DNA from: a virus
Direction: 5' to 3' (one strand)
Length of the DNA stretch: 23,087 bases
Virus record (IMG/VR): IMGVR_UViG_3300032087_000969
Span: 1 to 23,087 of that record
Positions 10,642 through 21,427 of the stretch are shown here, one piece after another. A model generated the notes under the pieces. It worked only from the letters and a program-made list of their open reading frames with translations, ran no database searches and had not been told where the DNA came from. The translations under genes and the position numbers were made by a program. The first letter of the stretch is position 1; each line of letters starts with the position of its first letter.

Positions 10642-12104
10642 CAGTAATACTCCCGTCTAGTGGGAACAAAATCGTCCCCGACGTTCTCGTTTTCCAAAGC
10701 TATAAAGCCTCCTTGGCGAAAACGCATCAATGCTAAAGTCATACTATCACAAAAATCGTCATAGTCACCATTAGGAAATGAAACAACTTCTTCAATCACT
10801 TCATCCGCGAATTTCTTGTCCGTTGGTGCCCACACTACCTCCGCCTCAAATAGCGGTGCTACCATGTGCATCCTCGTTATCTTATCCCGTCCTTTACCTG
10901 GCGAAAAGCCCAATGCAGGAATACCGCGCAGCCGCAACTCGTCAATGAGTGGTGTACCCGTCGCTTTCGCTTCGACCAACACCATGTCTGGCTCCCAGTA
11001 TTCGTGTTCTTCATACGCTATCTCCTTGAGTTCGGGAAAGTTCCAACGCCCTCGTCGAGCGTCCATCAAGATAATGTTGTCCGCGCCGCCCTCTTCTGGC
11101 TCGAAGATGCCCCACGTTGTGATAGCTGAATAGTCCGCCGTTTCCTTTTTAGAAAAGGCCGTGTCGTATGCTTGAAGAATGTACTTAACTGGAGGGATCT
11201 TGTCCTCTTCCCACGCTTGCCACCAGTCCCGTTTGATGATTGCACTCTCGGATGAGGTGGGCTGTTGCTGCCACTGCGCGTTCCACTTGCCCACAGGCAG
11301 TGACGCCTTGATAGACAAAAGCGCGTCCTTGTCCCAAAACTCAGGCCATAACGGTTTATCCGAAGGCATGATCGCAGGAAACTCCACGACCTCCCACTGA
11401 TCTGCCATGACATCCCCGCCTTGACTCGCAATCAAACGGCCCGTCAAATCTTTTTTACCCCAACGGGTCATAACAAGAATAATCGCACCACCTGGCTGCA
11501 AACGCTGTCGAGGACCTGATGTGTACCACTCATACGCGTGATCAAACGCCGTATCGCTTAACGCATCCTGTTCCGAATGAGGGTCGTCAATGATAAACAA
11601 GTCCGCACCACGCCCCGTAACAGCCGCTCCAACACCCGCTGCAAAATATTCACCACCTCGGTCAGTCTGCCATTTACCCGCACCCTTGTTGTCCTCCTTT
11701 AAATTCGTATTAGGAAACACTTCCTTGTACGCAGGATCATCAATCAAATCCCGCACCTTACGTCCAAACCGTACCGCAAGCTCCGTATTGTGTGTAGCTT
11801 GAATAATCTTGAGCTTTGGATTGCGCCCCAAAAACCACGCTGGCATCAGGAATGATGCAAACTCGGACTTGGAATGACGAGGCGGCATGTTGATAATTAA
11901 CCGCTTGAGTTCCCCTCGAGCTACGCGCTCCAGTTTCTCCGCGATAATTCTATGGTGCCTACCCTCAATGAAGTTTTCATACACATGATGAGCAAAGGGC
12001 ATGAAGTAATTCTGGGCTTCCTCTCTGAGGTCCAGCTTTTTCTTCGCTTCCGTTAGCGCAAGGATCTCCTTTAATGCTTCCTCTGGAAGTGCCTGTAAGT
12101 TCAT
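10641..12104 (-). CDS. terL: Terminase large subunit (packaging ATPase and nuclease)
   Basis: The 487-residue motor protein has both expected domains. In the ATPase, the Walker A-type segment INMPPRHSKSE is at 71-81, Walker B LFIIDDPHS at 169-177 (Asp173, Asp174), and the coupling motif MTRW at 212-215. In the RNase H-like nuclease, the likely metal-binding acids are Asp314 in YDTAFSKKETADYSA, Glu378 in VLVEAKATGTPL and one of the Asp residues in DYDDFCDS at 447-454. Walker A has Ser where most have Gly (PPRHGKS), a modest variation. It is preceded by the giant low-complexity gene and followed by the portal. The small subunit is not adjacent: it lies 8.4 kb to the right. Confidence 0.94.
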   Translation of the reverse strand: MNLQALPEEALKEILALTEAKKKLDLREEAQNYFMPFAHHVYENFIEGRHHRIIAEKLERVARGELKRLIINMPPRHSKSEFASFLMPAWFLGRNPKLKIIQATHNTELAVRFGRKVRDLIDDPAYKEVFPNTNLKEDNKGAGKWQTDRGGEYFAAGVGAAVTGRGADLFIIDDPHSEQDALSDTAFDHAYEWYTSGPRQRLQPGGAIILVMTRWGKKDLTGRLIASQGGDVMADQWEVVEFPAIMPSDKPLWPEFWDKDALLSIKASLPVGKWNAQWQQQPTSSESAIIKRDWWQAWEEDKIPPVKYILQAYDTAFSKKETADYSAITTWGIFEPEEGGADNIILMDARRGRWNFPELKEIAYEEHEYWEPDMVLVEAKATGTPLIDELRLRGIPALGFSPGKGRDKITRMHMVAPLFEAEVVWAPTDKKFADEVIEEVVSFPNGDYDDFCDSMTLALMRFRQGGFIALENENVGDDFVPTRREYY

Positions 12105-15100
12105 TATCTAAACCTATATGCCTTCGCCGTCGCCGCTGGAGATGGTGTGCGTGGACGATAGTAAGCCCCACCCGTTGGACGCATTCTGCCAACTTTCGGT
12201 GTGTCGTCCCCGATCTTCTGACAACGCCACTCGCCGTTGATCTGAACAGCCTCGAACCCTTCTGGACATTCGAACGGTGCTTCCTCTGCGGTTTCGTCAT
12301 CATCATCATCGTCACCCGTTGGTGCGCCAACTTCGACCACAACATCATCCTCTTGAGCAGGTCCACCTGGCCCACTCGGTTCGTCCGCTGGCGGCTCGTC
12401 CACCTCGACTACAACATCATCCTCATCACGAGGGGCTGTGTCCGTTGATCGAACGGCCCTGATCGTCTCAGGTGTTGTAGTGGTAGGTGCTCTTGTCGTT
12501 GTGTCCGTTGTGGACGGTGTAGTCGTCGAAGTATCCACAGGAACATCAACCACCGCAGCCACGTCTCGAGAACCAACCGTGCCCTCAATAATATCGCCTT
12601 CGACAGGTGTTTCAACTTCCGTTGATACCTCAGTATCCGTTGGAGAGAGAACCTCACCGTCAAATACAAACTCCGCTGCGCCTCGGCCCATCGCTTCTTC
12701 AGCGGCAAGCTGATTTGCACCAGGTGTTGCGTCAACGACATCAACCGTAGCCGCAACATCAACCTCGGTGCTCGGTCCAGTGGCCTCAGATTGCTCAATA
12801 CCCATGGCATTCTCTGCAATGTTCGCCACATCCTGCATCGACAGGTTGTTGTCTTCCGCTACTTTACGCGCCGTTTCAGCCGATAATGCACCCGTTTGGG
12901 CCACTTCTAGGCCAATTATGCCCTCTGGAGTGGTGTTTTGCCGTGCCGCCGCAACCGCTGCATCCAACGATCCAATACCCGCAGGAAGGTCCGTAGGCTG
13001 GTTAATACGGCTAATATCCACGTCAGATAACGATGGAGCCGCTGGTTCAGGTGCAATCGCAGGGGTTAAATCCACGTTCGGTAGCGTTTCCATGCCCGAT
13101 GGCTGCTGAAGTTGGTTAATTGTACCCACATCTATGTCTGGAAGCGTACGACCCATGGCCTCTTCCGCCGCAGCTTGGTTGTCTGACGCAATCTGATTGA
13201 CAATTTTAGACGATACCTCCGCACGACTGTCGCCCACATTCACATCCGCACCCTCATTTCGAGCCGCTTCAATCAATGCAATGCTTGCAGGACCCTGTGA
13301 CGCCTGATCCGCCGTCGTATTCGTGTCCGTCGTGATAATATCTATCTCATTTTGCAAGATTTCCGCCGCCGTCAGCCCCTCTGGACCCTGTGACATCACT
13401 TCAGGTGGCGTTGGCTGCGTTTGTTCTACTGTCGGTTGTGCATCCACGTTAGATGGCGCAGGTAACTGCGCTACAGTGCCCGTATTAGGCCGTCGGAACG
13501 CGCCTCCCGTGCCCAAAGCCTCGATACCAGAGGGCGGACCTTGGTTCGGAGCCTGTGGTTGCGCGGGTGCAGGAGCCTGAACCACCACATCCGTACCAGG
13601 AATGTTGATTACACTAGGCATTTGTTCTGCACTTGGGGCTACAGGCTGCGTAGGTTGTACGTTAGTTGCAACATTTCTGCCCATCGCCGCGTCAGCGTCC
13701 GCCTGAGTAGACGGAACAAGCGACTGACCGCTAATAACCGACGCTGCGGGGGCCACTGGCGCAGTAGGACCATCAGTCATAACATTCGGACCCGCGCCTC
13801 CCGCCTGATTTGGAGCCGTGCCGCGAGTTGCAACCGACGCTGTACCAGAGGCAAGAGCACCAACGGTCCCCGCTTCTGGGTCAAACTGGAACTCATTTTC
13901 AAAACCACCCGCCGTAGACGCCGATGTTTGAGCAATGTTAGGTTCAAACACACCTTCCTGAACAAATTCTTCCCCTGCGCTAATACCCATGCGCTGCAAT
14001 AGGTTCTGTCCAAGGCGACCAGGTAACAAATTCGATACCGTACCAATCAATGCAGCAGGAATTGTGTTAGTTCGACGGGCTTCGCCCTTCATCGCTTCAA
14101 TTTCACCCTGACCCAAACCTGACAATGTGCCGTCCGCAACGGCTGCATCAATAACCTGATCCGAAGACAACCCTACATCACCAACAGTCAAACCACCCGC
14201 AATTATCGGATTTGTTATAGCCGCCGCCGCAGAAGGCAATGTCCGAACCGTCTTCGCACCCAAGGCACTAAAGTCTACGAAACCATCTTCAGGAAACACA
14301 GGATTGGTAAGGTTAGCCTGATCTTCCGCCGACAATGTAGAAAACTGCCTGTCAATTAAATCTTGATCATACGGTAATTGAGCATCCGCGTAATTCGTCA
14401 AGAAGTTCGGATCATACTCAAGCATAGGAACCCCATTAGGTCCCACCTCCCCCAGTCTAGGTTTTGCAACAAACTCCCCAAGACTTTTAGCGGCACTGCT
14501 CGTCAACTGATTCAAATCAGCAAGACCCAAACCTGTTTTGGTCCCCGTCAATAGACCCATAGGCTGATCCTCACGGACCATAGTGCCATCTCTAAGCGTA
14601 AAGTAAGGCGTAGCCTCGCCAGTCTTAGGATCGCGTCCAAACGGACCAAACGCCTCGGCCTCATATGCCGCTTGATTCTCCGCGTTGATCTCTTCAACAG
14701 ACTTACGGCTCTGCCTACGAGCAGCCTGTCTATCATCAAAATCAGAAATCGCGCCCGTGATCGTATCATACGCAGTAGATAAACCGTCTCCTATGTCTGA
14801 AAAAAATCCCGCCTGAGTAACCTGAACACTCCCGTCAGGGTTCAAAGGTACGCGGGACGGGGCACTCGGATCAAGGTAACTCGTTTCCGTCGGAATGTTC
14901 TGTATCGCCGTCAACTGACGATTTAAATCCTGCGCGTCAGATAACTGAGCCTCCGCAAGCGTGTCATAAGTATTACCCTGAGAATCCGAATATGTGACCT
15001 TGTTAATTACAGGATCCTCGCCAGCTATAGTCGTCGCCTCAAATGTAGCAGGGCGTCCAGTCTCAGGGTCCGTTGTAACTAATGTATCAACAGACGATCC

Positions 15101-16219
15101 GTCCGATAACAACGTACCCGTCGCCGTGCTCTGACCCGTCGGATCAGCATCCGCCAACTCACTCTGACGCTCAAACCGCTCCGTGAAATTCATGTCCTCA
15201 ATAGTCGTGCCACCGTCCGCAGCAGGAGGCAATAAATCTTCAATAGTCGTGCCAGCACCGCCGCCTATCTGATCCAATATATCCTGCGGTATGTTCCCAG
15301 AAAGAGTAACAACATTGTCATTCTCGTCCTGAGTAAAAATAGTCGGACCCGCACCAGGATCAAAACCCTCGGGCTGCTGATCTGGCAAATACGGACCAAA
15401 CTCCTCTAAAGAAACAGACGTGTCCTGCGGAGCAACATAACCCACATTCTCACCGCGTCCCGCTTCTCCAACCCCCATGTTGGCATACGCAGGAGCAGGA
15501 GCAGGAGCAGGTGTCTGCTGGGCAGCAATCGCCGCGTCCAACGCAGGATCCTCACCAGTGATAGCCGTAGAATACGATTGCCCGTTATAAGTAAACGTAC
15601 TCCCCGCACCCAAGTTACTACGAGCCTCGCTAAACGCATCGCTGAAACTATCCGCACCACTGTAATCAGTCTGAGCAGCAGGAGCCGCCGCTGGCGCGTT
15701 GTAATTATCCTCAAAACCATTGTCCACCTGACCAGACGCGTAACGAGATGCAGCGTCACTACCCTGCGTACGCTCAATAGTCGCCGCAGTTCGGTCAATA
15801 AAATCCTGATCCTTGGGAACCAATCCCAAACCCATAGCTAAATCATTGCCAATGCCACTCACAACATCCGACGCAGTCTCCTGTACCGTCGTTAAAATAC
15901 TCTCCGCTGGAGAGGGAGACGGACTAGGGGACGGTGATGGACTTGGACTAGGGGACGGTGATGGAGCAGGAGCAGGGGAACTCTCGCGTATCTCAGTACG
16001 CTCCGAAACTAAATCATTCAGTTCAGGGGTCCAATCACCACCACTCGCACTCAACGCCGCATTGATATCCGCCTGTACCTCAGACTCCGAACGAGCCGCT
16101 GGTGCAGGAGAAGGCGAGGGACTCGGATCGCTGCTCGAACTCGAACTCGGCTCTGGATCACCAAAAGCTCGACGATCAAACTGCCAACTCATAAATGGGT
16201 TATACAATGAATAGCGCAT
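12104..16219 (-). CDS. Giant low-complexity protein of 1371 residues, function unknown
   Basis: The frame is open for 4.1 kb, from ATG at 16219 (overlapping the acetyltransferase stop as TGATG, AGGAG 7 bases before) to the terminase start. Ser-Pro runs lie at about 31-40 and 85-104. The body is rich in Ala, Pro, Thr, Asp and Gln, with three copies of an AxxAMGR motif (DADAAMGR, AAEEAMGR, AAEEAMGR). Twin TTIEDLLPP and TTIEDMNF segments also occur. The end is Asp/Glu-rich (DDVVVEV twice, a six-Asp run). A CPEGFEAVQINGEWRCQKIG module follows, then a basic tail. No enzyme motif or membrane helix is certain. It could be an ejected internal protein or an appendage. Confidence 0.78.
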   Translation of the reverse strand: MRYSLYNPFMSWQFDRRAFGDPEPSSSSSSDPSPSPSPAPAARSESEVQADINAALSASGGDWTPELNDLVSERTEIRESSPAPAPSPSPSPSPSPSPSPSPSPAESILTTVQETASDVVSGIGNDLAMGLGLVPKDQDFIDRTAATIERTQGSDAASRYASGQVDNGFEDNYNAPAAAPAAQTDYSGADSFSDAFSEARSNLGAGSTFTYNGQSYSTAITGEDPALDAAIAAQQTPAPAPAPAYANMGVGEAGRGENVGYVAPQDTSVSLEEFGPYLPDQQPEGFDPGAGPTIFTQDENDNVVTLSGNIPQDILDQIGGGAGTTIEDLLPPAADGGTTIEDMNFTERFERQSELADADPTGQSTATGTLLSDGSSVDTLVTTDPETGRPATFEATTIAGEDPVINKVTYSDSQGNTYDTLAEAQLSDAQDLNRQLTAIQNIPTETSYLDPSAPSRVPLNPDGSVQVTQAGFFSDIGDGLSTAYDTITGAISDFDDRQAARRQSRKSVEEINAENQAAYEAEAFGPFGRDPKTGEATPYFTLRDGTMVREDQPMGLLTGTKTGLGLADLNQLTSSAAKSLGEFVAKPRLGEVGPNGVPMLEYDPNFLTNYADAQLPYDQDLIDRQFSTLSAEDQANLTNPVFPEDGFVDFSALGAKTVRTLPSAAAAITNPIIAGGLTVGDVGLSSDQVIDAAVADGTLSGLGQGEIEAMKGEARRTNTIPAALIGTVSNLLPGRLGQNLLQRMGISAGEEFVQEGVFEPNIAQTSASTAGGFENEFQFDPEAGTVGALASGTASVATRGTAPNQAGGAGPNVMTDGPTAPVAPAASVISGQSLVPSTQADADAAMGRNVATNVQPTQPVAPSAEQMPSVINIPGTDVVVQAPAPAQPQAPNQGPPSGIEALGTGGAFRRPNTGTVAQLPAPSNVDAQPTVEQTQPTPPEVMSQGPEGLTAAEILQNEIDIITTDTNTTADQASQGPASIALIEAARNEGADVNVGDSRAEVSSKIVNQIASDNQAAAEEAMGRTLPDIDVGTINQLQQPSGMETLPNVDLTPAIAPEPAAPSLSDVDISRINQPTDLPAGIGSLDAAVAAARQNTTPEGIIGLEVAQTGALSAETARKVAEDNNLSMQDVANIAENAMGIEQSEATGPSTEVDVAATVDVVDATPGANQLAAEEAMGRGAAEFVFDGEVLSPTDTEVSTEVETPVEGDIIEGTVGSRDVAAVVDVPVDTSTTTPSTTDTTTRAPTTTTPETIRAVRSTDTAPRDEDDVVVEVDEPPADEPSGPGGPAQEDDVVVEVGAPTGDDDDDDETAEEAPFECPEGFEAVQINGEWRCQKIGDDTPKVGRMRPTGGAYYRPRTPSPAATAKAYRFR
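15921..15964. repeat. 24-bp tandem repeat coding Ser-Pro runs
   Basis: The 20-base unit from 15921 to 15940 (start GGACTAGGGG, end GGTGATGG) recurs exactly at 15945-15964, separated by ACTT, giving a period of 24 bases, a multiple of three. It encodes part of the Ser-Pro run near residues 85-104 of the giant protein. Slippage in such a repeat would change run length in frame. Confidence 0.85.
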
Positions 16220-16686: not shown

Positions 16687-16986
16687 CTCGGTCCTCCGTT
16701 TGTGGGGAGTTGTACCAAAGGTACAAGCAACAAACAACCCAAATGAAATTAGACCCGCGATTTTTTGGAGGGCATGGGACTCTAATGGAATTACCAGTGA
16801 ATGAATTTATCAAACTTGTATATATAGCGCGTATGTGTTGACGTGTCCCGCCAAATAGGGGGGATGGGGGGTCGCTGCTGCTCGAGCCGTCGCTGCAATG
16901 CGGCATAGTAACCCCTAAAGGGGGAGGGGGGATGCTGCATCGCGGCATAAGTTATCTGACATATTGGCGAAAATTAATTTAAATAA

Positions 16987-18422: not shown

Positions 18423-18466
18423 ATTACTAACACCCAGGCGCGGGGGATATCGCGCCATGCTCCTTG

Positions 18467-18498
18467 AACCCTGTGACTGCAAAGTCGCAGGGTTTTTT
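18467..18498 (+). terminator. Rho-independent terminator
   Basis: AACCCTGTGACT (18467-18478) pairs with AGTCGCAGGGTT (18483-18494) around a GCAA loop, including one G-T wobble, and six T residues run through 18493-18498. It ends the first run of early-type genes. Part of its right arm (GTCGCAGGG) has the same unit as the dispersed GC-rich repeat that begins a few bases later. Confidence 0.88.
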
Positions 18499-18501
18499 GT
18501 T

Positions 18502-18527
18502 GGGCCGCAAGGTCGCAGGGCCGCAGG
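18502..18527. repeat. GGTCGCAG/GGCCGCAG repeat cluster, first copy
   Basis: Three adjoining 8-9 base units (GGGCCGCAA, GGTCGCAG, GGCCGCAG) lie directly after the terminator. The same units recur at 19086-19139 and 20167-20254. They are intergenic here. No protein is encoded. The function is unknown. Confidence 0.8.
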
Positions 18528-18542
18528 ATTTTATTTATATAC

Positions 18543-18608
18543 ATGTGATTTAGTTGTTGACTGGTTGTTGGATCTGTGCAACCATGGGTCATAGGCAATC
18601 GGGCCTAT
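18543..18608 (+). promoter_or_regulatory. Second copy of the promoter-like block and leader hairpin
   Basis: ATGTGATTTAGTTGT at 18543-18557 matches 14 of 15 bases with the block at 16987, and TTGACT follows at 18557-18562 (a -35-like hexamer) without an obvious -10 at ideal spacing. ATAGGC (18591-18596) and GCCTAT (18603-18608) form a hairpin in the leader of the next gene. Confidence 0.45.
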
Positions 18609-18631
18609 CTTAAACCAGAAGGAGCAACCTT

Positions 18632-18814
18632 ATGAAAAAAGGTTATATTACACACACCCGTCTTGAAGCAGAGATCCGCTTGGATCTTGGTGAACTTGGT
18701 TCAGTCATCCGCGAACTGCCAGAAGATAGTTCGATCCGCAGCAAGCTGGAAACAGTTCGCCGCCAGATCCTCGAGGATGTGCAGTCTTCAATCAACTACG
18801 AACTTATGGATTAA
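18632..18814 (+). CDS. Small helical protein of unknown function
   Basis: The 60-residue product begins MKKGYITHTRLEAEIRLDLG and is charged and helical (SVIRELPEDSSIRSKLETVR, then QILEDVQSSINYELM). AGAAGGAG lies 7 bases before ATG in the recurring leader. A terminator-like hairpin with a T run follows directly. No family is recognised; it could bind a protein or nucleic acid partner through its helices. Confidence 0.75.
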   Translation: MKKGYITHTRLEAEIRLDLGELGSVIRELPEDSSIRSKLETVRRQILEDVQSSINYELMD

Positions 18815-18819
18815 GGAGG

Positions 18820-18845
18820 CGGGGGGCTTGGCCCCCCGATTTTTA
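18820..18845 (+). terminator. Terminator-like hairpin between two small genes
   Basis: CGGGGGGC and GCCCCCCG form an 8-bp stem with a TTG loop, followed by ATTTTTATT. It lies between an AAGGAGG site (18813-18819) and the start codon at 18848, so it may also shape translation of the next gene. Confidence 0.8.
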
Positions 18846-18847
18846 TT

Positions 18848-19033
18848 ATGGTACATGGATCACCAGAAGATCGAGGCGGGGCCGATGCCTACTATGGCAG
18901 GGCAATAGATCCGCACTACTGGCCCGAGGGAACTTACAACGGCAAGCGGGTCGAGAAAGATAATATGACCAGAGCGCAGATCGAAGCCTATCTCAAAGCA
19001 TACGAAGACCAGGATTATTTTAAAGAATGGTAA
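18848..19033 (+). CDS. Small conserved-looking protein of unknown function
   Basis: The 61-residue product begins MVHGSPEDRGGADAYYGRAI. It contains DPHYWPEGTYNGKRVEKD, MTRAQIEAYLKAYED and an acidic-aromatic end. I recall similar short proteins (HGSxxDRGxADxYYGRxxxPHYW) in phages and bacteria, with no known role. There is no ribosome site in the 9 bases before ATG; the only one is upstream of the hairpin at 18820-18838. The G-rich codons and lack of a nearby site make the start less certain than the gene itself. Confidence 0.75.
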   Translation: MVHGSPEDRGGADAYYGRAIDPHYWPEGTYNGKRVEKDNMTRAQIEAYLKAYEDQDYFKEW

Positions 19034-19037
19034 ACCA

Positions 19038-19060
19038 GGGGGCCGCAAGGCCCCTTTCAC
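19038..19060 (+). terminator. Terminator-like hairpin with GCAA loop
   Basis: GGGGCC and GGCCCC form a 6-bp stem around a GCAA tetraloop, followed by TTTCACAT. A further 5-bp hairpin (TATGC, GAAA loop, GCATA) follows at about 19063-19076. They mark the end of the upstream gene; the short T run suggests partial termination. Confidence 0.65.
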
Positions 19061-19085
19061 ATATGCGAAAGCATAATAAAGACCA

Positions 19086-19139
19086 GGGCGGCAAGGCCGC
19101 AGGGTCGCAGAGACGCAGACAGGGCCGCAAGGTCGCAGA
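19086..19139. repeat. GGTCGCAG/GGCCGCAG repeat cluster, second copy
   Basis: Six 8-9 base units lie head to tail, with one three-base break: GGGCGGCAA, GGCCGCAG, GGTCGCAG, AGACGCAG, ACA, GGGCCGCAA, GGTCGCAG. Intergenic, directly before the promoter-like block for the Cys-rich gene. Confidence 0.85.
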
Positions 19140-19156
19140 GATATAAAGAAAACTTT

Positions 19157-19190
19157 TTACTTGTGGTTTACTTGTGCTCTGCTAATATCA
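19157..19190 (+). promoter_or_regulatory. Third copy of the promoter-like block
   Basis: TTGTGG (19161-19166), a 16-base spacer and TAATAT (19183-19188) make the best sigma-70-like pair in the window. The block TTTACTTGTGCTCTG (19167-19181) is identical to one upstream of 17090. TTACTTGTG is also directly repeated here (19158 and 19168 onwards). The Cys-rich gene starts 30 bases after TAATAT. Confidence 0.6.
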
Positions 19191-19217
19191 AATTGTTAAC
19201 TAGAAAGAGGAAACAAA

Positions 19218-19898
19218 ATGCAACATGCAATCATCTACAATGGGCCAAGCCTCTTGGATGGAAAGCCAATTGTCGTTATCGCGACGTACTCAAACCGCAA
19301 CACCAAAACGGGCAAGGTCGTGCAAACTTATATCTTGCGCTCAGATATTAACCCGCTCGAGGCCAGCAAAACGGGCCAAGACTTTTCAATCTGTGGATCG
19401 TGCCCAATGCGCGGCGAAGTGACGACGGATCCAAAGCGCAAGATTGCCAAGGGCCGCAAGTGTTACGTTAACTTAGGCCAAGGCGTTTTAATTGTTTTCA
19501 AATCATACAATCGCGGCGTTTATAAAGAGGGCGACCCGCGCACCATGGGCCGCGATAGGTTCGTGCGCGTCGGGACATATGGCGATCCCGCCGCCGTCCC
19601 GTCGCACGTTTGGGACGAATTACTAGCAGAATGTGAAACTTGGACAGCCTACACACACCAGAAACCATGGCGTCCAGATATCGCAATGCAAAGCGCGGAT
19701 TCATACGACGAAGCAAAGGCCCATTGGGCCGAGGGCCGTCGCACCTTTCGCGTAATTGTGGACCTTGGCGATATCGACAAAACAAACGAGGCACTATGCC
19801 CTGCATCAAAAGAGGCGGGTCGCCGCGTCCAGTGCACAGCATGTAAACTTTGCAAGGGATCCAGCCTAGCAAAATCAATCGCAATCGTGGAGCATTAA
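19218..19898 (+). CDS. Cys-rich phage protein of unknown function
   Basis: The 226-residue product has a beta-rich first half with a motif remembered from many marine phage hypothetical proteins (TGKVVQTYILRSDINPLEAS, then GQDFSICGSCPMRG and RKCYVNLGQG). Cys residues at 59, 62, 82, 139, 194, 206, 209 and 212 include two CxxC pairs (CGSC and CTAC), suggesting one or two zinc sites. It carries an AAAGAGG site before ATG and follows the best promoter-like pair. No catalytic motif is visible. A nucleic-acid-binding role is possible, since early-type phage zinc proteins often bind DNA or host polymerase, but this is only inference. Confidence 0.85.
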   Translation: MQHAIIYNGPSLLDGKPIVVIATYSNRNTKTGKVVQTYILRSDINPLEASKTGQDFSICGSCPMRGEVTTDPKRKIAKGRKCYVNLGQGVLIVFKSYNRGVYKEGDPRTMGRDRFVRVGTYGDPAAVPSHVWDELLAECETWTAYTHQKPWRPDIAMQSADSYDEAKAHWAEGRRTFRVIVDLGDIDKTNEALCPASKEAGRRVQCTACKLCKGSSLAKSIAIVEH

Positions 19899-19900
19899 AA

Positions 19901-20107
19901 ATGGCAAAGACACCGCAAGTAAAACCAGACTGGAACACAGGCATCTACATCGGAGACGGTGTAGTTGCCACACCAAAACCCGCCTGGCAATGGACGGATC
20001 AAGAGATCCGAGACTACTACGACCAGAATCCTAACCTAACAATCCTAACCTTGGCGGGTATGGTCGGATTGACGGGCACCGAAGTAAAAGAAATACTGAT
20101 GTCATAA
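19901..20107 (+). CDS. Small protein with a helix-turn-helix-like C-terminus
   Basis: The product is 68 residues from ATG at 19901, with GGAG about 10 bases upstream; an in-frame ATG at 19850 lies inside the preceding gene and lacks a site. It begins MAKTPQVKPDWNTGIYIGDG. It ends with helices NPNLTILTLAGMVGLTGTEV that fit a short HTH (helix, turn around GL, second helix). It starts 2 bases after the upstream stop. A small regulator or DNA-binding partner is possible but unproven. Confidence 0.75.
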   Translation: MAKTPQVKPDWNTGIYIGDGVVATPKPAWQWTDQEIRDYYDQNPNLTILTLAGMVGLTGTEVKEILMS

Positions 20108-20112
20108 AGACC

Positions 20113-20134
20113 AGGGGGCCACGGCCCCCTTTTT
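20113..20134 (+). terminator. Rho-independent terminator closing the rightward cluster
   Basis: AGGGGGC (20113-20119) and GCCCCCT (20124-20130) form the stem, with a CACG loop, followed by TTTT. A second inverted repeat, CTGTGCC and GGCACAG, follows at 20135-20151. The opposing gene ends at 20162, so this gap separates convergent units; the same stem can also work weakly on the minus strand. Confidence 0.85.
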
Positions 20135-20161
20135 CTGTGCCATCGGCACAGGCACACAATA

Positions 20162-20596
20162 CTACAGGACCGCAGGGTCGCAGGGTCGCAGGGTCGCAGA
20201 CATTTGATCAAGCAAACGGGGCCGCAGACTTTCGAACAAGGCCGCAGGGTTCGAGAACCGTTGGCCCTCCGCACCTTTGATGCCCCCGAAGATGAGACTT
20301 GGCCCCTGATCCCCCCCAAACAAATATAGATCCTTCGTAGAGAGGCTCTTTACCAAGAAGAAACTAAGACCACCTCGGGCGTAATAGGCCATATGCCACG
20401 CTGCCTGATGAGATGAGACTTTTACTGCATTCCCCTTGCTTACCTTTAATTCGAACCAAAACGGTATGCCATCCCAGACAATGTGCACATCAGGAACACC
20501 GCCCCCATGTACGTTTTCAATCCGAGTTGCGAATGCTTTCTTGGGTAGGTTCGACCTCAACGTGTTCCAAAAGTTGGCCTCTGGTCCCTTGCTCAT
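20162..20596 (-). CDS. PD-(D/E)XK nuclease-like protein (VRR-NUC or Holliday resolvase type)
   Basis: The 144-residue product shows the core of the restriction-endonuclease-like fold: GGGVPDVHIV with Asp36, then FWFELKVSKGNAVKV with Glu49 and Lys51, then HQAAWH with Gln64. It starts MSKGPEANFWNTLRSNL with GGAGG 9 bases before ATG. The role could be recombination, DNA processing for packaging, or host DNA cleavage. It shares 80 bases with the end of the small terminase gene in another frame. Its last 31 residues (from SNPAALFE) come from the GC-rich repeat, so the natural C-terminus may be set by repeat expansion. Confidence 0.85.
   Translation of the reverse strand: MSKGPEANFWNTLRSNLPKKAFATRIENVHGGGVPDVHIVWDGIPFWFELKVSKGNAVKVSSHQAAWHMAYYARGGLSFFLVKSLSTKDLYLFGGDQGPSLIFGGIKGAEGQRFSNPAALFESLRPRLLDQMSATLRPCDPAVL
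20167..20254. repeat. GGTCGCAG/GGCCGCAG repeat cluster inside the nuclease 3' end
   Basis: Units GGACCGCAG and three consecutive GGTCGCAG occupy 20167-20199. GGGCCGCAG and GGCCGCAG follow at about 20219 and 20240. Because the unit is 8 bases, its copies are read in rotating frames as the tail of the nuclease. This is the third cluster of the same family in the window. Confidence 0.85.
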
Positions 20597-21086
20597 CTGT
20601 TATATCCTCCGCTGTGCCATCGATCACGAAGGCTTGCGGATATTGTTTCTGTAACATTGCAAGTCGGGCAGTTATTTCATCCCTCGAGAGTTGATCAATA
20701 GTGTTTATTGTTTCACGCCTGTCGATGGTCAGACCACCAAGAGCAGAGCGTATCTTTTCTGCGTTGATTGCGGCAGAGAATTGCCCTGCCTCTTCTGCAC
20801 CCAGAGATAATTTAAACAGACGCTCAAGCTGCCCGATGGTTGTCACACCATACTTGCGTTCACGTTCCTGTCGTAACTCTTGGATGTATTCCACGACATG
20901 TGGATAGTCTCGACCATTTAACAAACGTGACGCGTGTTCTTTTGCGAGATCCTCTTTGTACCCAGACTTTCTTGCACACTCTGCGTTGGAGTAGATCCCT
21001 TCCACAATGTGTTTAGCAAAAGTCATTTGCCGATTGGTCAGTTGGCGACCATGTTCTTCTTCAATCTTTTTCTGTACCGAACCCAT
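20517..21086 (-). CDS. terS: Terminase small subunit
   Basis: The product is 189 residues from ATG at 21086 (MGSVQKKIEEEHGRQLTNRQ), chosen because GGAG lies upstream; a longer frame to 21119 lacks a good site. The N-terminal part is the DNA-binding helical domain (LTNRQMTFAKHIVEGI, SNAECARKSGYKEDLAKEHA, SRLL), typical of the small terminase family that selects the packaging site. The middle is a coiled-coil oligomerisation region (EYIQELRQERERKYGVTTIG). The C-terminus is acidic. The two terminase genes are on the same strand but 8.4 kb apart. Its end overlaps the nuclease start by 80 bases. Confidence 0.87.
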   Translation of the reverse strand: MGSVQKKIEEEHGRQLTNRQMTFAKHIVEGIYSNAECARKSGYKEDLAKEHASRLLNGRDYPHVVEYIQELRQERERKYGVTTIGQLERLFKLSLGAEEAGQFSAAINAEKIRSALGGLTIDRRETINTIDQLSRDEITARLAMLQKQYPQAFVIDGTAEDITDEQGTRGQLLEHVEVEPTQESIRNSD

Positions 21087-21164
21087 GCCTGTCTCCGATT
21101 TTCCACAACCATAGTACAAGTAATTCCTGTTGCCAAGATTTCTATATAGGATGTTCCCAGAGAT

Positions 21165-21354: not shown

Positions 21355-21427
21355 AGAAATTTGCCCTGTTGGAGATGAAAAAAATAAAAATCTCTGGTAG
21401 CGTTCTATATGTAAATCAGTAACGGGC

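Follow-up and report, generated by a model that had tools for sequence, protein, structure and literature searches.

Oriented short-repeat arrays, putatively protein-binding, in one small-gene module of about 90 related marine phages

What is the role of a GC-rich octamer that recurs in three clusters among the small genes of a marine phage? We analyzed a 23-kb phage record from IMG/VR (23,087 bases; hereafter the window), whose terL is 54-60% identical to terL of pelagiphages HTVC027P and HTVC023P and of phages 023Pt_psg01 and DSL-LC04. The repeat unit, GGYCGCAG, has 11 exact matches in the window, 10 on the + strand and one on the - strand (18407, within a gene). Across 100 dinucleotide-preserving shuffles, the mean count was 1.36 and the maximum 5, and none of the 100 reached 11; chance is excluded. 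The matches form clusters at 18502-18527, 19086-19139 and 20165-20247 (arrays 1, 2 and 3), in agreement with an earlier note made from the sequence alone. That note described the family as dispersed, which is misleading, as the repeat is restricted to one gene module. It also knew of no named phage repeat of this type, and our literature search likewise found no paper describing the literal unit GGYCGCAG.

In the window, the late genes and the terS-nuclease operon are leftward and flank a rightward module of small genes (17.1-20.1 kb). On the + strand, the order is terminator, array 1, promoter, two small ORFs, terminator, array 2, promoter, phrog_2554 gene, 68-aa ORF, terminator and array 3. 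The first intrinsic terminator (18466-18495), recognized from its sequence, carries a one-mismatch copy of the unit (AGTCGCAG, 18483-18490) in the 3' arm of its hairpin, where the earlier note had placed it. Array 1 (GGCCGCAA GGTCGCAG GGCCGCAG, 18502-18527) is followed by a putative promoter with a weak -10 box (TTGACT, 17 nt, AACCAT; 18557-18585), and the motif TTGTTGACTGGTTGTTGG was also found after array 1 in relatives. Two small accessory ORFs of 60 and 61 aa (18632-19033) separate array 1 from array 2. A terminator hairpin (GGGGCC-GCAA-GGCCCC-TTT, 19039-19057), identified by sequence and arranged alike in relatives, stands ahead of array 2 (GGCGGCAA GGCCGCAG GGTCGCAG AGACGCAG, a gap, then GGCCGCAA GGTCGCAG; 19086-19139). 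The predicted promoter of the phrog_2554 gene (TTGTGG, 16 nt, TAATAT, with an A/T-rich spacer; 19161-19188) lies 22 bp below the final array 2 unit, and the gene itself (226 aa, 19218-19898) is well conserved within the clade. The 68-aa ORF (19901-20107) is the last rightward gene, and a further intrinsic terminator (20113-20135) precedes array 3 (GGACCGCAG, three copies of GGTCGCAG, then GGCCGCAG at 20220 and 20240; 20165-20247).

Array 3 is the antisense of the C-terminal codons of a leftward nuclease gene (20162-20596, - strand; phrog_2165/phrog_93, weakly RecU/Hjc-like). The upstream gene of this operon encodes the terminase small subunit (terS, 20517-21119, - strand), and array 3 sits at the convergent end of the operon. 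A palindrome (GGTTCGAGAACC, 20247-20258) adjoins the array, and GGTTCTTGAACC occupies this place in several relatives (L132, L163 and L059). Elsewhere in the window, we observed a 1371-aa ORF (12104-16219) that lies between terL and the small-gene module, is rich in Ser, Pro and Gln and contains simple-sequence tracts; another G-rich repeat (GGGGGGATGGGGGGTCGCTGCTGC... / GGGGGAGGGGGGATGCTGCATCGC, 16840-16950) upstream of the first gene of the module; and a 28-nt imperfect inverted repeat (79%; 21137-21164 and 21390-21417) in the divergent promoter region of terS and a methyltransferase gene.

Viral contigs were scanned twice by DNA pattern and twice by protein, which yielded 153 loci after contained copies were dropped; densities and array counts were taken from 93 non-redundant loci. 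The core was present at the 3' end of the nuclease gene (array 3) in 92 of the 93 relatives and upstream of the phrog_2554 gene (array 2) in 71 of 93, frequencies that hold for this clade and not for phages generally, as the relatives were gathered by nuclease, phrog_2554 and octamer searches. Most of the listed loci that lack array 2 have another gene and a terminator directly before phrog_2554. In relatives lacking the exact octamer, a clade variant (GGCGCAAG, AGCCGCAG or GGGGCGCAG) stands in the corresponding position, which reduces the constant core to [CGT]CGCA[AG]; CGCAR is kept in the units and the flanks vary by clade. Core density was strongly oriented, with 28.9 forward vs 1.2 reverse per kb at the nuclease end and 18.6 forward vs 1.7 reverse per kb upstream of phrog_2554. 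Forward densities in the nuclease body and terS were 0.1 and 1.1 per kb. In two near-complete relatives of 56-58 kb, clear arrays were limited to a single accessory-gene module of 1-2.5 kb, lying between terS and terL. The repeat is therefore no accident of sequence: about 90 related marine phages share it as a conserved element of probable control or boundary function.

One more octamer array was found in G006 (the record of L184), a 63.9-kb phage contig of 58% GC. Its 34 core units (GGYCGCAG; L253:1899-2232) lie between two co-directional genes and in the orientation of those genes. G006 encodes no homologue of 11 window proteins, and we set this array aside as convergent or transferred.

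Could the repeats exist because the nuclease needs them as protein? The nuclease ORF ends in LRP-CDP-A..., a tail supplied by the repeat in rotating frames, as the earlier note described. Selection for an LRPCDP tail would fit its stability between close relatives and the layout of array 3, which is the same in 92% of pairs with at least 97% nuclease identity (23% for array 2). The variable bases of array 3 units also differ by frame. Yet the non-coding arrays 1 and 2 hold the same units, all three frames are used in array 3 across the 93 genomes (149, 100 and 222 units), and units extend beyond the nuclease stop codon in 42 of them; in 4 of 93, no unit lies inside the ORF. The note's own test, by which a tail conserved as protein in diverged relatives would favour coding, came out split. 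Within the clade the tail is fairly constant, but deeper relatives change its sequence, frame and length or lose it, their nucleases ending in LAPLAPLAPQ or in unrelated tails. In HTVC023P, the nuclease is short and its gene is not convergent with the small genes, and no array was found in the stretch tested. As the tail varies across deeper relatives and units pass the stop codon, the DNA repeat looks primary, and we consider a coding origin highly improbable. The nuclease tail appears to be mainly a by-product of array 3, that is, translated array DNA, and the frozen layout of this array hints that the tail is not quite free to change.

Arrays 1 and 2 are positioned between an intrinsic terminator and the following promoter. 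Among relatives, the distance from the end of array 2 to the -35 box has a median of 19 bp (10-90% range 12-22), and the promoter below is TTGTGG-like, with 16-17 nt of A/T-rich spacer and a TAATAT/TACAAT-like -10 box. Best promoter scores exceeded those at random module positions downstream of array 1 (p=2e-17) and array 2 (p=2e-36), p-values that are optimistic because related genomes are not independent; array 3 had no such downstream enrichment (p=0.81). Because array 2 guided the setting of promoter weights by eye, array 1 is the fairer test.

We interpret the units, with a probability of roughly 0.4, as direction-sensitive, putative protein-binding arrays that regulate or insulate small transcription units. 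The units would be cis-acting DNA sites, read one way by a sequence-specific protein of the phage or the host. Arrays, of 3-8 units each, would occupy the spacers between the terminator of one small transcription unit and its successor's promoter (arrays 1 and 2), and array 3 would close off the point of convergence between the leftward terS-nuclease operon and the rightward small genes. Once bound, the protein might switch on or gate the promoter below and keep adjacent transcription units insulated, and the arrays may grow and shrink by slippage of whole repeat units. Protein binding, a role in regulation or insulation, and any connection with timing are what we infer from the non-random occurrence of the units, their strict orientation, their confinement to one module at conserved positions, the association of arrays 1 and 2 with promoters, the conserved core, the flanks that differ by clade but tend to agree from array to array, and the whole-unit turnover of array 2. 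Two points count against binding arrays. The 7-8 bp pitch would put neighbouring units on different helix faces, and array 3 lacks a downstream promoter, so activation alone cannot account for it.

A search for a candidate binding protein near the arrays turned up no more than an HTH match in the 68-aa ORF, weak and below cutoff. The phrog_2554 protein was considered as the reader and rejected: its AF2 model (pLDDT 84.5) had no PDB fold match better than E 0.8, and the protein had no sequence relative of solved structure.

An element acting in the transcript, whether through hairpins (GGCC-GCAA-GGYC), through G-quadruplexes or as a Rho-utilisation site in leftward RNA, would be consistent with the folding of array 2, which was better than that of shuffles on both strands (z=-2.8). 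Arrays 1 and 3, however, folded no better than shuffles (z -0.15 to -0.97), and the self-complementary GGYC is lost in clades with AGCCGCAG or GGCGCAAG. Strict quadruplex motifs (four G-tracts of three or more) occurred in just 10/93 and 3/93, the leftward strand did not have the excess of C over G expected for Rho utilisation at array 3 (median C-G = -0.017), and an Rfam search returned no match. The RNA structure suggested by the earlier note thus finds no general support, array 2 alone folding better than shuffles, and we regard an RNA-level element as very unlikely. The search of marine host genomes, along the lines that the note had proposed, gave 54 genome stretches, mostly from high-GC actinobacteria, with scattered chance matches. 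None of the 54 encodes a homologue of the 11 window proteins tested, and borrowing of the repeat from a host was not supported.

We compared 14 phage pairs in which the phrog_2554 and nuclease genes were at least 93% identical and the promoters matched. Whole 8-bp units were often gained or lost in array 2, whereas array 3 was identical in every pair. Spread of the units by slippage or recombination, another proposal of the note, is accordingly supported for the non-coding array 2, between near-identical flanking genes. The arrays as such could be products of these processes, that is, same-direction repeats at the borders of swappable cassettes that arise by unequal exchange and template switching and are kept for aiding cassette recombination, with no dedicated binding protein. 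The turnover of array 2 fits this explanation, as do the small genes between the arrays, which are patchy among relatives while phrog_2554, the nuclease and terS persist. Similarity between the window and its relatives also breaks repeatedly at the arrays (about 18429, 18527, 19023-19092 and 20107-20171), but these breakpoints are weak evidence, since shared arrays trivially end alignments. Recombination leaves unexplained the strict orientation at all three sites, the narrow array-promoter distance and the unchanging layout of array 3, and we find it doubtful as the origin of the arrays.

Unit flavour differs by clade and tends to match between the arrays of one genome. The flavour of arrays 2 and 3 correlated within genomes (rho 0.62, 0.57 and 0.47), and still agreed once terS divergence was accounted for (partial Mantel 0.40, permutation p=0.002, 34 genomes). 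A single reader shared by the arrays would produce such agreement; so would gene conversion, and shared descent could also be the source of the covariation. As a tentative possibility, flavour may serve as an address code, in which a clade-specific 7-8 bp sequence is kept uniform by a putative trans-acting reader that times the small-gene module. The timing role would be suggested by HTVC027P, where gp33 and gp34 form a distinct expression cluster.

The location of array 3 raises another explanation, a packaging or replication site in which oriented arrays beside terS are recognized by the small terminase, the nuclease or a replication initiator, with array orientation setting the direction. 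Each genome has a single such locus, in one orientation and adjoining terS, in the window and likewise in relatives, and nuclease divergence was the best tracker of unit flavour (0.52 and 0.59). The cumulative GC-skew minimum fell within ~3 kb of the arrays in five contigs, but it also coincides with the transcription switch. Divergence of terS did not predict array 2 flavour beyond phrog_2554 (partial 0.07), and the spread of the arrays, 1.7 kb around promoters, is not that of a compact pac or ori. The small ORFs neighbouring the arrays, searched for a replication initiator, had no family match above cutoff. We consider a packaging or replication site unlikely.

The cultured pelagiphage HTVC027P resembles the window family in having three syntenic array places in one orientation. 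One of its 7-bp arrays occupies the nuclease 3' end, and the others stand immediately upstream of the TTGACA -35 boxes of gp33 and gp34. In contrast to GGYCGCAG, the unit in HTVC027P and 023Pt_psg01 is CAAGCYN-like (7 bp) or CRAG-based, and the HTVC027P gene below the array, gp33, belongs to phrog_1392 and not to phrog_2554 as in the window clade. In infection RNA-seq, exactly gp33 and gp34 made up a separate expression cluster with a peak at 6-9 h (PMC12753301), which we treat as a positional analogy because gp33 is not a demonstrated phrog_2554 homologue. Homology of the two was not supported (hhalign probability 3%), and they represent different families. The HTVC027P nuclease homologue with the repeat tail (L265 6001-6420) is not annotated on that strand in the public record. 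In 023Pt_psg01, a periodic 7-8 bp repeat occurs at the nuclease end. This genome also has five copies of a 31-nt element containing GGGCCCACCC (L267 5398, 6211, 6968, 7751 and 7806); one copy falls within the nuclease end, and at least one is closely followed by a promoter-like site. The literature searched does not mention the HTVC027P and 023Pt_psg01 repeats, and no arrays were seen by eye in roseophages CRP-171 and CRP-2 or in pelagiphage HTVC033P.

The arrays resemble several known short-repeat phenomena and are a member of none tested here. The short repeats SRL and SRR of T7 are arrays of ~7-bp direct repeats in a tailed phage and flank the terminal repetition, whereas the window arrays flank small accessory transcription units. 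The GGGNATC heptamers of Xanthomonas and Nostoc are likewise short, G-rich tandem units over-represented between aligned ORFs, but they are genome-wide and quadruplex-forming (PMC4692102), whereas the phage arrays are confined to one module and have no conserved G-tracts. Tandem repeats of Borg elements are fast-evolving direct repeats, both intergenic and in ORFs of an extrachromosomal element (PMC9879509). They arose independently at many sites, in contrast to the three fixed places held by the phage arrays in ~90 relatives.

Protein-binding sites are the best remaining reading of these units. The arrays keep their positions across a widespread, little-understood marine phage group, marking the borders of accessory genes, and they exemplify how an enzyme can gain a translated tail from a DNA element beside its gene. 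Should a protein read them, the arrays would offer a handle on the timing of early-middle genes, which could be tested in cultured HTVC027P.
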